A DNA stretch of 64,000 nucleotides from an uncultured Campylobacter sp. (GTDB lineage: Bacteria; Campylobacterota; Campylobacteria; Campylobacterales; Campylobacteraceae): NCBI GenBank assembly GCA_934718785.1, contig CAKVAF010000002.1:51521-115520 (forward strand). Direction: 5' to 3'. Every line of letters starts with the position of its first letter. The first letter of the stretch is position 1. This document shows, one piece after another, positions 27,130-47,374 of the stretch. Below the pieces are notes generated by a model. The model was given only the letters and a program-made list of their open reading frames with translations, searched no databases and had not been told where the DNA came from. The position numbers and the translations under genes are program-made.

Positions 27130-28305
27130 ATGAAAAAATATCTCATTTTAGCACTTGTGGCACTTGTTTTAATTTTCGTGCTTTTTTTTATCTTTTCAGG
27201 GTCTAAAAAGCAAGAGTTTATCACGCAAAAAGTCACGCGCGTGGATATTGAGCAAAGCATTGAAGCCATCGGCGAAGTGTATGCGAAAACGCAAGTGGAT
27301 GTGGGCGCACAGGTAAGTGGGCAAATCACAAAGCTTTATGTGAAAATCGGCGATAGGGTCAAAGCAGGCGATTTAATCGCTCAAATTGATAAGGACAAGC
27401 AACAAAATGATTTAGACATCACCAAAGCCCAGCTAGCAAGCGCTAAAGCCAAGCTTGAGAGCAACAAAGTCTCGCTAGATATCGCGCTGCGTCAGTATCA
27501 AAGAGAGCAAAAGCTCTACGCCGCCAAAGGCACTTCACTGGAGCTTTTAGAGACCGCAAAGAGCAATTTTTACACGCTTAAGGCAAATGTCGCGGATTTG
27601 GAAGCTCAAGTCGTGCAGCTTGAAATCACGCTTAAAAATGCCGAGAAAGATTTAGGCTACACCACTATCACAGCCCCAATGGATGGCATTATCATCAATG
27701 TAGCCGTGGATGAGGGGCAAACGGTCAATGCCAATCAAAGCACGCCAACCATTGTAAAAATCGCAAATTTAGACGAAATGGAAGTGAAAATGCAAATTGC
27801 AGAAGCGGATGTTTCTAAGCTTAAAGTGGGCGAAGTGGTGCGCTTTAGCATACTGAGTGATTCGCGCAAGCAATATGAAGCCAAGATTTCAAGCATAGAT
27901 CCCGCAAATACTGAAATTTCAGATGCTACAAGCTCTTCTACAAGCTCAAAATCAAGTTCTTCAAGCAGTTCTTCAAGCAGCTCAAACACGGCGATTTATT
28001 ATTATGCAAATTTCTTTGTTAAAAATGAAAATAATCTATTAAGAATTGGCATGAGCACAGAAAATCAAATCATCGCCGCAAGCGCAAAATCAGCCATCGC
28101 TGTGCCCACTTACGCGATTAAAAATGATGATAAGGGCTATTTTGTCGATGTTTTAGAAGCGGGCAAAAAAGTGAGCAAATATGTCAAACTAGGACTCAAA
28201 GATAGCTTAAACACGCAAATTTTAGAAGGGCTGAATGAAAATGAAGATTTAATCGTAAGCAGCGATACAAGCAATGTCAGCAAGCCTAAATTACCGCCAA
28301 GATAA
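27130..28305 (+). CDS. macA: MacA-type periplasmic adaptor protein
   Basis: 391 residues. A single N-terminal membrane anchor (YLILALVALVLIFVLFFIFSG) is followed by the split lipoyl domain (VGAQVSGQITKLYVKIGDRVKAGDLIAQID and YTTITAPMDGIIINV), a coiled-coil hairpin (about 95-180) and beta-barrel parts, the standard adaptor plan of MacA. It links MacB to a TolC-type outer-membrane channel to export peptides, macrolides or lipids. Residues 265-287 are an unusual run of Ser and Thr encoded by imperfect 12-base repeats. It is followed by macB after 32 bp. Confidence 0.9.
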   Translation: MKKYLILALVALVLIFVLFFIFSGSKKQEFITQKVTRVDIEQSIEAIGEVYAKTQVDVGAQVSGQITKLYVKIGDRVKAGDLIAQIDKDKQQNDLDITKAQLASAKAKLESNKVSLDIALRQYQREQKLYAAKGTSLELLETAKSNFYTLKANVADLEAQVVQLEITLKNAEKDLGYTTITAPMDGIIINVAVDEGQTVNANQSTPTIVKIANLDEMEVKMQIAEADVSKLKVGEVVRFSILSDSRKQYEAKISSIDPANTEISDATSSSTSSKSSSSSSSSSSSNTAIYYYANFFVKNENNLLRIGMSTENQIIAASAKSAIAVPTYAIKNDDKGYFVDVLEAGKKVSKYVKLGLKDSLNTQILEGLNENEDLIVSSDTSNVSKPKLPPR

Positions 28306-28337: not shown

Positions 28338-30347
28338 ATGATAAGATTAAAAAATATACGCAAAAATATCGGCGAAGCGATGATTTTAAAGGGTGTGAGC
28401 TTGCATATTGAAAAGGGCGAATTTGTCACTATTATCGGGCAAAGCGGTAGCGGTAAAACCAGCCTTTTAAATATCATCGGCACGCTTGATGAGATAAGTT
28501 CTGGTAGTTTTATCTTTGAAAATTACGAAGTGACAAAGCTTAATAAGGATGAAAAAGCACGCCTTAGACGCGAGAAAATTGGCTTTATTTTCCAGCGCTA
28601 CAATCTTTTAAGCCTTTTTAGTGCGGAAGAAAATGTCGCCCTGCCCGCTGTTTATGCGGGCAAAACGCACAATGAGCGCATTAAAAGAGCGGATGAGCTT
28701 TTAAGCGAACTAGATCTTGCTAGCAAGCTTAAAATGCGTCCTAATCAGCTTTCAGGCGGCCAGCAACAGCGCGTGAGTATCGCGCGTGCGCTGATGAATG
28801 GCGGCGAACTGATACTAGCTGATGAGCCCACCGGCGCGCTTGATAGCAAAAGCGGGGTGATGGTGCTTGAGATTTTAAAAAATCTTCACGCCAAAGGACA
28901 CACTATCATTTTGGTTACGCACGATCCAAGCATTGCAGCACAGGCACAGCGCGTTATAGAAATAAAAGATGGGCAAATCATCAAAGATAGTAAAGAGAAT
29001 TTAAATTCAGAGCAAAATTTAAGCTCGAATTTAGATAATGGATTACCACGACAAAACGAAGTTTTGTCTCGCAATGACAATAAAAACTCAGCCCCTAAGC
29101 AAATTTTAGACAAAATGCCCGCGGAAGTTAAAAATTTCGCGCTTTTAAAAAATCAGCTCAATGAATGCTTTAAAATCGCCTTTGCGTCGATTATGGCAAA
29201 CAAACTGCGCTCGCTTTTAACCATGCTAGGTATCATCATCGGTATCGCTTCAGTGGTCTGTGTGGTCGCACTTGGGCTTGGCTCGCAAGAGCGCGTGCTC
29301 GCTTCTGTGGCAAGACTTGGCACAAATACCATAGAAATTCAAGGCGGGCGCGGGATGGGCGATTTGCGCTCGGGCCGGGTGTATTTAAATTTAAGCGATT
29401 TAAGGGCTTTACAAAGCTTGCCTTATTTAGAAGCGGTCGAAGCGCAGGTTAGAGGCTCTGGCGTCATCACTTATCAAGAAACTTCACTTTCTGCCACAGG
29501 CTATGGCACGGGCACGCAAGAATTTAAGATCCGCGGTAGAGAATTTGCAGCAGGCAGGGGCTTTGGCAATGATGATATCGCGCAAAATGCTAATGTAATG
29601 GTACTTGACTATCCCACACATCAAAAGCTTTTTCCAAATACAAGCGCGCAAGAAGTGCTGAATAAAACGCTCATTTTCAAAGGCCAGCCCTTTCGCGTCA
29701 TCGGCGTTTTAAGCAAAAATACAAACAGAATGTTTGAAGACACTTCAGTGCGCGTTTATATGCCCTTTACAACGATGATGAATAAAGTCACAGGCGATAA
29801 AAACTTGCGTTCTATCGTCGCAAAGGTCAAAGATAGCGCCGATCCAACGCTCAGTGAAGCCGGTATTATCAGGCTTTTAGAGATTAAGCGTGGCAAAAAG
29901 GATTTTTTTACTATAAATTCAGACAGCATTAAGCAGGCTATGGAAGAAAATACGCGCACGATGACGATTTTAATCTCATCCATTGCTGTGATTGCTTTAA
30001 TCGTGGGTGGTATTGGCGTGATGAATATCATGCTTGTTTCAGTGAGCGAACGCACGCGCGAAATTGGCATAAGAATGGCTATAGGAGCGCGAAGAGAAGA
30101 CATTTTAATGCAGTTTTTAATCGAAGCCGTGATGATATGCACGATGGGAAGCGTTTTGGGCGTGGCTTTAAGCTTTGGCGTGGTAGGCATTTTTAACGCC
30201 ATAAGCAGCGATTTTACAATGATCATGTCGGCTAGTTCAGTGGTGCTTGGGCTTTTAAGCTCGGTTTTAATCGGGCTTGTTTTTGGCTTTTTCCCGGCTA
30301 AAAACGCAGCAAATTTAAATCCTATCGCGGCTTTAAACAAGGAGTGA
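28338..30347 (+). CDS. macB: MacB-type ABC exporter, ATPase-permease fusion
   Basis: 669 residues, somewhat longer than typical MacB. The N-terminal ATPase has GQSGSGKTS (Walker A, about 35-43), LSGGQQQR and [12 protein letters not shown]. The C-terminal part has one span (about 290-312), a large periplasmic domain and three more spans, with the MacB motif [18 protein letters not shown]. The extra length sits in the linker at about residues 215-275, where a palindromic repeat is read in frame as [13 protein letters not shown]. It powers export with MacA and the outer-membrane protein encoded next, whose start overlaps its end. Confidence 0.92.
29041..29078 (+). repeat. Palindromic interspersed repeat inserted in frame in macB
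   Basis: GATTACCAC then GACAAAAC-GAA-GTTTTGTC then TCGCAATGAC. On the other strand it reads GTCATTGCGAG ... GTGGTAATC, the same ends as the intergenic element at 47318-47354, with a different hairpin core. Confidence 0.7.
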
Positions 30348-30349
30348 GC

Positions 30350-31756
30350 ATGCAAGAAGTGAAATTTAAAGAAGCAAAAATGAAGATTTTTTTAAAACAA
30401 AGCGTGTATTTACTGGCTTTTGTGGTGATTTTATTGCTTATGAATGCTTGTTCTTATGGGGTGAAAGAGCTTAATTTAAAGCCTGATATCGCCACGCAGG
30501 AGCAAATTAAGGATTTAAATTTAAGCCGCGCGTGGTGGCAAAGCTATGAAAATGAAAAATTGAATGAATTTATCGCTTATATTGAAGCAAACAACGCTGA
30601 TATCAATGTCGCGCGTATGAATTTGCTTAAAGCCGTGGCAAATTATAAACTCATTAATTTTGATTTTTATCCAAGTTTAAGCGGAAATTTAGGCGCGAAT
30701 GTGGCTAAGGATTTAAATTTAGGCTCAAGCTCGCATAGCTTTTCAAACGCGCTTAATCTCAGCTACGAGCTTGACATTTATGGCAAAATTTCAAATCAAA
30801 TCGCTTCTAAAGAATTTGCCGCCAAAGCCAGCGCGTATGATTTAGAAAACTTGCGTCTAAGCGTGATAAACACAAGTCTTGACAATCTTTTTGATTTGGC
30901 TTATTTTAACGATGTTCAAAAGCTTTTAAAGCAGTACATTGCAAATTTAGAACAAAGCGAAGCCATTTTTAAGCTCAAATACGAGCTTGGCAAAATCGAA
31001 GAACTCGAGCTTTTAAATGTGCAAAATAGCCTTTATAACGCGCGTCAAAGTCTCATTAGTAACACGCAAAATAAAGAACTGGTGCTTAAAAATTTAAAGG
31101 ATTTGTTAGGCAGTGCGCAAAGTTTTGAAAGATTAAAGGACTTTGAGGGCTTGAGTTTGAGCGAATTTAAGGATTTAAACATAATCTTTGATTTGCCTTT
31201 AAGCGTCTTTGCATACCGCGCGGATGTGCGCTCTAAAGCAAACACTCTTTTAGCAGCCTTTGAAGATGTAAAATCAGCGCAAAAGACGATTTTACCAAGT
31301 GTGAGCTTGGGCGGAAGCTTAAGCGGCAGTGGCGATAATATCAATGCTAACTTTAAATCGCTAAATTTAGGCGGCGTTTTGCAAATTTCTTTGCCTTTTT
31401 TGGACTTTGGCAGGGTGCGTCAAAATGTGAAAATTTCACAATTTAGCTATGAAGCTTTAAGGCTTGATTATGAACAAGCCTTGCAAGTGGCTTTGAATGA
31501 GTTTTATCTGTGCTTTAAAGACTATGAATATAATCAAAAGCTTTTAGATAATATCAAGCTTATTAACGCCAAGCAAGAGCTGATTACTGAGGCTTACAAG
31601 CAAAAATATGAGCTTGGCAAAAGCGAGCTTAAGGATTATTTAGACGCGCAAAACAGCTTCATTTCTTCATCACAAGAAATTCTAAGCTCGCGCTTAAAGG
31701 TACTTAAAACGACGAATTTATATTATAAAATCACGACAATCAAGCCTGAAATTTAG
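30350..31756 (+). CDS. TolC-like outer-membrane efflux lipoprotein
   Basis: About 468 residues from ATG 30350, five bases after AAGGAG; another ATG at 30380 starts directly at the signal peptide. The hydrophobic leader ends LLLMNACSYG, a plausible lipobox, so the mature protein starts at Cys. Two outer-membrane efflux repeats follow: SRAWWQSYENEKLNEFI, ALNLSYELDIYGKI, GKIEELELLNVQNSLYNARQ and the second half with LPFLDFGRVRQNVKISQFSYEA and KSELKDYLDAQNSF. It provides the exit duct of the MacAB pump, translated by start/stop overlap with macB. It is the CmeC/NodT type of TolC homologue. Confidence 0.88.
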   Translation: MQEVKFKEAKMKIFLKQSVYLLAFVVILLLMNACSYGVKELNLKPDIATQEQIKDLNLSRAWWQSYENEKLNEFIAYIEANNADINVARMNLLKAVANYKLINFDFYPSLSGNLGANVAKDLNLGSSSHSFSNALNLSYELDIYGKISNQIASKEFAAKASAYDLENLRLSVINTSLDNLFDLAYFNDVQKLLKQYIANLEQSEAIFKLKYELGKIEELELLNVQNSLYNARQSLISNTQNKELVLKNLKDLLGSAQSFERLKDFEGLSLSEFKDLNIIFDLPLSVFAYRADVRSKANTLLAAFEDVKSAQKTILPSVSLGGSLSGSGDNINANFKSLNLGGVLQISLPFLDFGRVRQNVKISQFSYEALRLDYEQALQVALNEFYLCFKDYEYNQKLLDNIKLINAKQELITEAYKQKYELGKSELKDYLDAQNSFISSSQEILSSRLKVLKTTNLYYKITTIKPEI

Positions 31757-45739: not shown

Positions 45740-47185
45740 ATGTTAAGTTTTTTTCTCATACTGTTAAGCCTTGTCGCTGTTATCATCGTGGCTTATTATA
45801 TTTTAAAAGCTTACAATCCTGTTTTTGTTTTCTTTCTCTCAGGTCTTATCTTACTCATCGGGGCTTTTTATCTCACAGGTGCTGTGATACCCGGATCTAA
45901 ACTCAATGCCAACTCAAGCTTTGGTGCGACGCTTTTAGCCAGCTTTGTTTTCATCACAGATACTTTTAAAAAGCAGCTTGCTGGCGTGGGGCTTATCATT
46001 ATGGCAGTGGCTGGCTTTGCAGGCTATATGAAGTATATCAACGCTTCGGCTAAGCTTGCGTATCTAGCAAATAAGCCTTTGGGGCACATTAAAAACAAAT
46101 ATCTTATTTTAAGCGGCGTTTTTGTCGTGGGTATGGCTCTTAAAATCGTGATTTCTTCTTATGCTGGGCTTATGCTTTTGCTTTTAGCATGCATTTATCC
46201 TGTTTTAATTTCTCTTAAAATTCGCCCTATCACAGCGGTGGCGGTGCTTTCCTTAATCGGCATTGATTATGGTCCAAAAGATGGCAACACAGTCCAGCTT
46301 GCCGGCATAGTAGGACAGCAAGATAATGTCGTCGGTGTGTTTTTAAACTATCAAATTTATCCAGTGATTGTTTATGTCGTGCTTTTAGCCATTTTAATCC
46401 CTTTTTATTTCAAATATATCGACGCTAGAGATGCTAAGAAAAATATCAAATTCGAAGAAGTAGAAATCCCTGAAATTGCCGATGTGAAATGCCCTACTTT
46501 TTATATTTTCTTTCCTTGGCTTCCTGTGGTGTTTTTGTTTGCGGCGTATTTTTTAAATTTCAAGCTCGATGTGGTAACCGTGATTTTCATCTCAATCGCT
46601 CTTGTTTTTGTAATCGAGTTCATACGCCACAAAAGCGCAAAGCCTTTGTGCGAGGGCATGGTCGTCATCTTAAAGTCTATGGCTGAAATTTTTATCTCAG
46701 TTGTTAGCATTATCGTGGCTGCTGGCGTTTTTGCAGAGGGCATCAAAGCCCTTGGTGGCATAGGCATTTTAGCAAGCGCACTTTCAAATTTAGGCGCTTC
46801 TGCGGTGATTTTAAGTATAGCGACTTTAAGCTTTATTGTGTATTTTGCCACAGTGATTATGGGCTCAGGTATTGCTGCTTTTCAAGCCTTTGGCAAAATC
46901 GCAAATGACATAGCACCAAAATTAGGCATTCCGCCTATCACGCTCGTTTTACCGCTTGAAATCGCTTCTTGCTTGGGCCGTTCTGCCTCGCCTATTGCAG
47001 GCGGTATCATTGCTTTGGCTGGCTTTGCAAAGGTGCCTCCCATGGAGATTATAAAGCGCACCATGCCATTTTTAATCATCGCGATGATAGCAAATATACT
47101 CACAGCTTGGTATTTAAGCGCCAAAGAAGTTCCTGAATATATGAAGCAAGCAGCTGTGCAAAACAGCACACAAGTTGTGAGATGA
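45740..47185 (+). CDS. dcuC: C4-dicarboxylate carrier, DcuC family
   Basis: 481 residues from ATG 45740 (after AGAAAGGATTTTT); a longer frame from 45659 reads through the promoter. About 12 spans. The middle has SLIGIDYGPKDGNTVQLAGIV and the C-terminal half MGSGIAAFQAFGKIA and ASCLGRSASPIAGGIIALAGFAKV, both typical of DcuC. It likely exports succinate or exchanges it for fumarate during low-oxygen respiration. From memory the C. jejuni NCTC 11168 counterpart is disrupted; this copy is intact. Confidence 0.85.
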   Translation: MLSFFLILLSLVAVIIVAYYILKAYNPVFVFFLSGLILLIGAFYLTGAVIPGSKLNANSSFGATLLASFVFITDTFKKQLAGVGLIIMAVAGFAGYMKYINASAKLAYLANKPLGHIKNKYLILSGVFVVGMALKIVISSYAGLMLLLLACIYPVLISLKIRPITAVAVLSLIGIDYGPKDGNTVQLAGIVGQQDNVVGVFLNYQIYPVIVYVVLLAILIPFYFKYIDARDAKKNIKFEEVEIPEIADVKCPTFYIFFPWLPVVFLFAAYFLNFKLDVVTVIFISIALVFVIEFIRHKSAKPLCEGMVVILKSMAEIFISVVSIIVAAGVFAEGIKALGGIGILASALSNLGASAVILSIATLSFIVYFATVIMGSGIAAFQAFGKIANDIAPKLGIPPITLVLPLEIASCLGRSASPIAGGIIALAGFAKVPPMEIIKRTMPFLIIAMIANILTAWYLSAKEVPEYMKQAAVQNSTQVVR

Positions 47186-47297: not shown

Positions 47298-47317
47298 TAA
47301 AAGAATTGAAAAATTGT

Positions 47318-47354
47318 GTCATTGCGAGAAAATCCGCCAGATTTCGTGGCAATC
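47318..47354 (+). repeat. Palindromic interspersed repeat
   Basis: GTCATTGCGAG, then AAAATC-CGCCA-GATTTC forming a small hairpin, then GTGGCAATC. Ends match the element inside macB; the core differs. Confidence 0.65.
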
Positions 47355-47374
47355 TATAAATTTAATAAAAAATC

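Follow-up and report, generated by a model that had tools for sequence, protein, structure and literature searches.

The macB gene of an uncultured Campylobacter sp. raises the question of how a palindromic repeat comes to lie, in frame, inside a protein-coding sequence, and whether the linker in which it lies is prone to receive such repeats. In the 64,000-nucleotide stretch of DNA that we analysed (the window), macB is a plus-strand ORF of 669 amino acids (28338..30347) with matches to ABC_tran (residues 17-165), MacB_PCD (292-509) and FtsX (548-662). In the ORF list it is preceded on the same strand by an ORF at 27130..28305, which from its sequence we take to be macA-like, and followed by one at 30344..31756 that is presumably a TolC-like outer-membrane efflux gene. 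The macA-like ORF carries a poly-serine tract of its own (27931-27987), in which the 12-bp tandem unit AGTTCTTCAAGC is present in 2.2 copies (27955-27980). A plasmid search with macB gave distant matches only.

The initial annotation had proposed that a palindromic repeat is inserted in frame in the MacB linker and that its ends recur in an intergenic element with another hairpin core, and direct reading of 29041-29078 and 47318-47354 confirmed both sequences at these positions. On the minus strand, 29041-29078 is GTCATTGCGAGACAAAACTTCGTTTTGTCGTGGTAATC, that is, GTCATTGCGAG, a hairpin core and CGTGGTAATC. With its TGTC tag (29076-29079) and CCA tail (29039-29041), the element spans 41 nt (29039..29079, minus strand) and reads TGTCATTGCGAG-ACAAAACTTCGTTTTGT-CGTGGTAATCCA, where ACAAAACTTCGTTTTGT is the core. 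Read as codons of the 669-aa ORF, its plus-strand positions 29040..29078 correspond to the 13 MacB residues 235-247, so that the repeat is indeed in frame. The second copy (47317..47356, plus strand; ends and core at 47318-47354) has the same ends, a different core, a TGTC tag and a CTA tail. It lies between convergent ORFs ending at 47185 (plus) and 47449 (minus), a position described as common for REPs in the main text of PMC3733652.

It might be argued that the codons of an unconstrained, low-complexity linker merely resemble a repeat by chance. Against this, 21 end positions (one of them two-fold) recur in the right order and spacing twice in 64 kb: the two-ended pattern GTCATTGCGAGN{10,30}CGTGGYAATC has two matches in the window and none in 100 dinucleotide shuffles. 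The tag and tail match as well, and we give a chance resemblance next to no credence. Further copies with these ends also occur in other Campylobacterales genomes, as described below, and a plasmid search with the 42-nt element returned no match.

To characterize this type of element (type 1), we collected 70 two-ended matches from stretches of genomes G045 and G013, loci of G046 and G049, and the window, which gave 65 distinct elements with flanks and 55 distinct cores. While the constancy of the ends follows from the pattern itself, the similarity reaches beyond it, to a CGTC/TGTC tag on one side and a C(C/T)A tail on the other. Among the 65 elements, the first base of the tag is C in 41 and T in 22, followed by G in 63 and T in 64; after AATC comes C in 51 or T in 14, and then A in 64. 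The cores are variable in sequence; counting inwards from the outer edge, 36 of the 55 pair over at least three bases, and in the other 19 no more than two bases pair. The mean perfect core stem is 4.58 bp, compared with 1.17 when core halves are swapped between elements, and the highest mean in 200 swaps was 1.73. Hairpin-templated repair is our guess at the source of cores that are variable yet often paired.

At the RNA level, the macB element folds at -11.5 kcal/mol on the minus strand (z -3.1) and at -7.6 kcal/mol in the mRNA sense (z -2.4). In the folds of both window copies (minus strand for the one in macB, plus strand for the intergenic one, whose core pairs over three bases only), GUC is directly followed by an A-U pair and then a U-A pair. 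It could be envisaged that a hairpin in the macB mRNA slows translation, or stabilizes the part of the message between the ATPase and the permease, and that the peptide is a by-product. The mutual matching of core halves across elements fits this idea, as does the mRNA-sense fold, which was equalled in only four of 200 shuffles. However, pairing is also found in copies outside genes, and is thus a property of the element, not of macB. Moreover, other macB linkers carry different elements, orientations and cores, many macB genes carry none, and Rfam gave no match up to E 1 across 28800-29300. A function of the RNA hairpin in macB therefore appears very unlikely to us.

Among known repeats, the closest likeness is to the CGTC-tagged REPs, which have a CGTC or TGTC tag, a complementary AT first in the stem and a 3-bp tail that is mostly CCA, and which are mostly intergenic and have no clear dedicated transposase according to the main text of Di Nocera 2013 (PMC3733652). 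The elements found here resemble them in the tag, the AT start of the stem, the CCA-type tail, and a mainly intergenic location with some copies within ORFs. They also have the traits of REPs in general, being short, palindromic, repeated and mainly extragenic (70 of 83 sampled elements lie outside ORFs of at least 90 aa). The CGTC-1 to -4 classes, however, have stems of 8-9 bp and loops of 4-5 bases (main text of PMC3733652), whereas the palindrome here is about 40 nt long and nested, combining mismatches and an inner hairpin of variable sequence with an outer stem that is short and fixed. Since the tag, stem start and tail fit but the stem and loop lengths do not, we regard the element as CGTC-like and do not place it in CGTC-1 to -4.

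Rickettsia palindromic elements (RPEs), compared by description only, are likewise palindromes that lie in frame inside protein genes, and RPE-4 and RPE-6 have been assigned to CGTC families (PMC3733652, main text). They are described as spread over many genes, however, whereas here one linker is struck repeatedly. The initial annotation named Rickettsia for in-frame palindromic repeats, but they are not confined to that genus: according to Di Nocera 2013 (PMC3733652, main text), REPs of the CGTC and GTAG kinds lie within genes of numerous species, and neutral insertion of REPs into flexible linkers is proposed there. MITEs such as the Coxiella QMITEs are also non-autonomous and sometimes in frame in genes (PMC5896051); MITEs are given as 70-300 bp long and resembling degenerate ISs in the main text of PMC3733652, so the 41-nt macB element falls short of their size. 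By title, no paper on such repeats in Campylobacter was found in the open-licence literature, and the genus is not named in the main texts of PMC3733652 and of RepRanger (PMC12306157). In-frame REPs are thus known elsewhere, and what is new is their recurrence and polymorphism in one linker.

Within the genus, type-1 elements are present in only four of 49 genomes, with 63 copies in G045, two each in G013 and G046 and one in G049; the other 45 have none, and a reversed-pattern control gave no match in any of the 49. Across the order, they were found in 20 of 398 genomes, again with no match of the reversed pattern. The largest number, 118 copies in about 1.8 Mb, occurs in G336, a genome without a match to a Y1 transposase. 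Elements of a second type, type 2 (CATTCTGAG...GAATCC), are represented by 18 copies in G045 and one in G039, and one control match was seen in G033. G045, at 2.9 Mb in many contigs, is large for the genus (the others have 1.2-1.9 Mb), and any contamination of this assembly would affect its element counts to a greater degree than its macB.

An origin by a RAYT-type transposase was considered and finds no clear support in the distribution of Y1_Tnp profile matches, which occur in none of the four carriers in the genus, in five of the 45 non-carriers and, across the order, in seven of 20 carriers. Among the four genomes with the most elements, G336, G045 and G169 have no detectable Y1 (RAYT-type) transposase, and G351, the third richest, has a match. 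REP-poor and REP-rich relatives thus coexist in one order, the two richest of them without a Y1 match, which offers a setting in which to ask what moves these elements.

If the repeat was inserted into macB, relatives without it should be found. We aligned 31 MacB rows, comprising L001, L002 and the 30 best-matching Campylobacter loci less L047, with genome G002 represented twice. Within this set, 27 proteins are 640-644 aa long and have a short linker devoid of the insert residues; the initial annotation had remarked that the MacB of the window is longer than usual. In three further rows, each 653 aa long, the linker is slightly extended by residues that are not of REP type, and the sole row with REP-type residues is L042, from G045. 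Outside the cluster to which the protein of the window belongs, the relative with the highest score is P0007 (641 aa, 77% identical). Its linker has 44 aa, compared with 72 aa in the window, and lacks all 28 extra residues. Only 13 of these are the REP; another 14 (residues 221-234; 28998..29039, plus strand) form an N/L/S/Q-rich stretch that adjoins it, so that the difference from the repeat-free P0007 is not a clean 39-bp insertion. This stretch starts with AATTTAAATTC (28998-29008), which occurs four times in the window against 0.72 expected, a count reached in two of 100 shuffles; two of the four occurrences are a single overlapping site read on both strands, within the stretch itself.

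Repeat-free alleles are found in relatives, as the initial annotation had envisaged, but none was seen in the window's own species. Neither of the two outcomes that would have spoken against that annotation was observed, namely linker residues common to all relatives on unrelated DNA or a lack of other genomic copies with these ends. All six protein entries of the window's cluster among the matches listed contain the insert, two of them (P0001 and P0006, unsourced) apparently being proteins of the window itself and the other four coming from other sources. These six entries therefore include no repeat-free allele and no exact empty site, and the insert may be fixed there. As for the region in which it lies, the solved MacB 5lil has nine residues between the aligned ATPase and membrane segments, compared with 40 in the window. 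In an AF2 model, pLDDT is below 50 over residues 221-274, yet with 24 sequences and a mean pLDDT of 57.6 the model is poor throughout, and the low confidence in the linker thus argues only weakly for disorder.

Did this happen once? A second case, seen at the DNA level, comes from G045, whose macB linker contains, in frame, an exact type-2 REP and an inverted diverged stretch that, judging from its sequence, may be read as the partner of the REP. To look more widely, we assembled 318 MacB proteins from three protein searches (best 120 of each) and clustered them by the C-terminal part at 92% identity, which gave 22 clusters. Among the matches listed, REP-type peptides occur in eight of the 22; outside the window and G045 this is peptide evidence from a loose pattern, not DNA evidence. 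The type-1 peptides appear in three reading frames, as LPR..RND, DCH..LAMT and HCE..QS, which are the translations expected from the element in those frames. LPR..RND is found in the window's cluster and in P0008, and DCH..LAMT in 95 of the 214 proteins of the P0031 clade, again among the matches listed, as well as in P0050, P0104, P0230 and a single protein from each of the P0013 and P0052 clusters. HCE..QS and type-2 peptides occur in three clusters each among the matches listed. The linker peptide of P0008, GLPRLDEVKSRND, fits the ends and frame of the window insert with a different core, as far as a peptide can tell; if both go back to the same insertion event, this would be an exchange of the core at one site, and otherwise two insertions. 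In P0104, a MacB of 936 aa, the linker alone takes up 339 aa; it consists of REP-type peptides that recur along with N/S-rich blocks, and it seems to include tandem duplications.

The insertion is recurrent but not general. Among the matches listed, the remaining 14 clusters have no REP-type peptide and have linkers of 43-56 residues; they include the P0014 cluster of 70 proteins, which come from C. coli and C. jejuni where sources are named. Because P0107 and P0015 were chosen as queries in order to reach clades with inserts, eight of 22 is not a population estimate. Of 153 family genomes, 126 match P0107 at E 1e-100, and among the matches listed a long linker is found only in G045. The REP load of a genome was also tried as a predictor of the macB insert, and no relation was found. 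Of 16 element-carrying genomes searched for MacB, six (G049, G046, G013, G251, G169 and G093) have a full-length fused protein of ordinary length and no insert, and the other ten gave separate or partial matches only. The insertion is thus not a simple result of the number of REPs. With REP-type peptides in eight of the 22 clusters and the REP in G045 macB, the MacB linker looks like a recurrent landing site for REP pieces.

The linker also appears to vary among proteins that are otherwise nearly the same. When the linker is set aside, 613 alignment columns remain, over which P0069 (686 aa) and P0107 (719 aa) share 99.7% of residues, although only P0107 has the type-1 peptide; for P0013 and P0015, which differ by a type-2 pair, the value is 99.5%. 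Each of these two pairs shows further differences elsewhere in the linker. Furthermore, 14 groups of proteins identical in both flanking parts hold alleles with and without the type-1 peptide, the largest of which comprises 48 proteins, 21 with and 27 without it (among the matches listed). Since the database is non-redundant, the 48 distinct linkers of this group are inflated by construction, and only the coexistence of REP states counts. For pairs of linker modules, all four combinations occur in the group, which points to recombination or to chimeric assembly. When 214 proteins were placed on a tree by their C-terminal parts, at least 16 state changes were required; this figure was given no weight, as 138 of the rows are identical there and it lacks a shuffled control.

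Chimeric metagenome contigs might indeed be thought to have given rise to the insert, or to the mosaic structure of the linkers. Assemblers make errors at repeats such as REPs, many of the proteins compared here are listed without a source and probably derive from metagenomes assembled from short reads, and the occurrence of all four module combinations is what such errors could yield. Yet records of the window allele exist for 82 contigs, of which the longest measures 240 kb, the observed inserts keep the frame, and G045 shows the DNA in its context. Chimeric assembly may account for part of the mosaic in the P0031 clade; as a general explanation, we find it very improbable. It is possible, though we would hold it only tentatively, that the MacB linker of some Campylobacter is hypervariable and modular, consisting largely of REPs and of AT-rich segments, with gain, loss and recombination of these pieces going on inside species and no change in the domains on either side, and that the hairpin core may be swapped as a unit at a fixed site.

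We therefore suggest that a dispersed REP-like palindrome has very probably been captured in frame, at near-neutral cost, in the disordered linker of MacB, and that the same linker has been struck repeatedly. According to this scenario, 29039-29079 would be one copy of a dispersed, non-autonomous REP-like palindrome with fixed ends (TGTCATTGCGAG ... CGTGGYAATCCA) and a variable hairpin core. It would have landed in frame in macB, in an orientation without stop codons, in a presumably disordered segment that joins the ATPase domain to the first membrane helix. The 13 added residues (28 with the adjoining low-complexity stretch), if translated in the cell, would cost little in a linker, and a stop-free, in-frame landing at such a place may be what allowed the element to become fixed. 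In other Campylobacter lineages, the same linker would have been struck or expanded repeatedly by type 1 and by the second type (GTCATTCTGAGC ... GAAGAATCC), and linker pieces would still be segregating among near-identical proteins. On this passive account, copies that fall in frame in the disordered linker survive, and most others that fall in genes are probably lost.

It would be tempting to infer instead that REP pieces are retained for their effect on the length or charge of the linker, and through it on the coupling between ATPase and membrane domains, with selection maintaining the diversity. The 214-protein clade has linkers of 83-154 aa with 153 distinct sequences among the matches listed, both REP states coexist in the 48 proteins with identical flanks, and the same linker is struck in several lineages. 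However, purifying selection on the domains combined with drift in a disordered linker predicts the same picture, and many fused MacBs have no insert, as is evident from the 126 family genomes above. Such adaptive tuning seems to us rather unlikely, and near-neutral capture remains the reading that we prefer. The case bears on the question of whether REPs that lie in frame are junk that the cell tolerates or a source of new protein material: near-identical proteins that apparently differ by an in-frame REP, at one site of a well-studied type of transporter, should make its gain, loss and cost measurable.

The initial annotation had also asked whether elements fall inside further genes, and they do so in G045, a genome other than that of the window. 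In a sample of 83 elements from 40 stretches (81 elements from G045 and two from G013), with ORFs of at least 90 aa that start with ATG or are open-ended, 13 elements lie inside such ORFs. Nine of the 13 fall in five G045 ORFs with a Pfam match, which encode a Glyphos_transf/GT1 protein, a type I specificity subunit, a DUF559-containing protein, McrC and MacB. The glycosyltransferase (L111:3984-7529) has two large REP-rich in-frame inserts that are absent from the G034 and G017 orthologs, the former of which is continuous and the latter additionally without a further stretch. In McrC, the REP is near the N terminus, where a wrong start codon could explain its inclusion. ORFs with elements in L125, L132 and L133 are short and were not counted as real genes, the last two being also without a Pfam match. 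The elements themselves may contribute a little to such captures: 46 CCA-tailed type-1 elements have a mean of 3.98 of six frames open, compared with 2.98 for random DNA from G045; for 14 type-2 elements, the mean of 3.50 hardly exceeds, if at all, that of random (3.29) or shuffled (3.51) DNA. Translatability is thus a modest property of type-1 elements that helps capture a little. The DUF559-containing ORF (L116:3-3629) contains, besides type-1 REP peptides, another repeated peptide, SPPPLR..., which perhaps represents a further repeat family.
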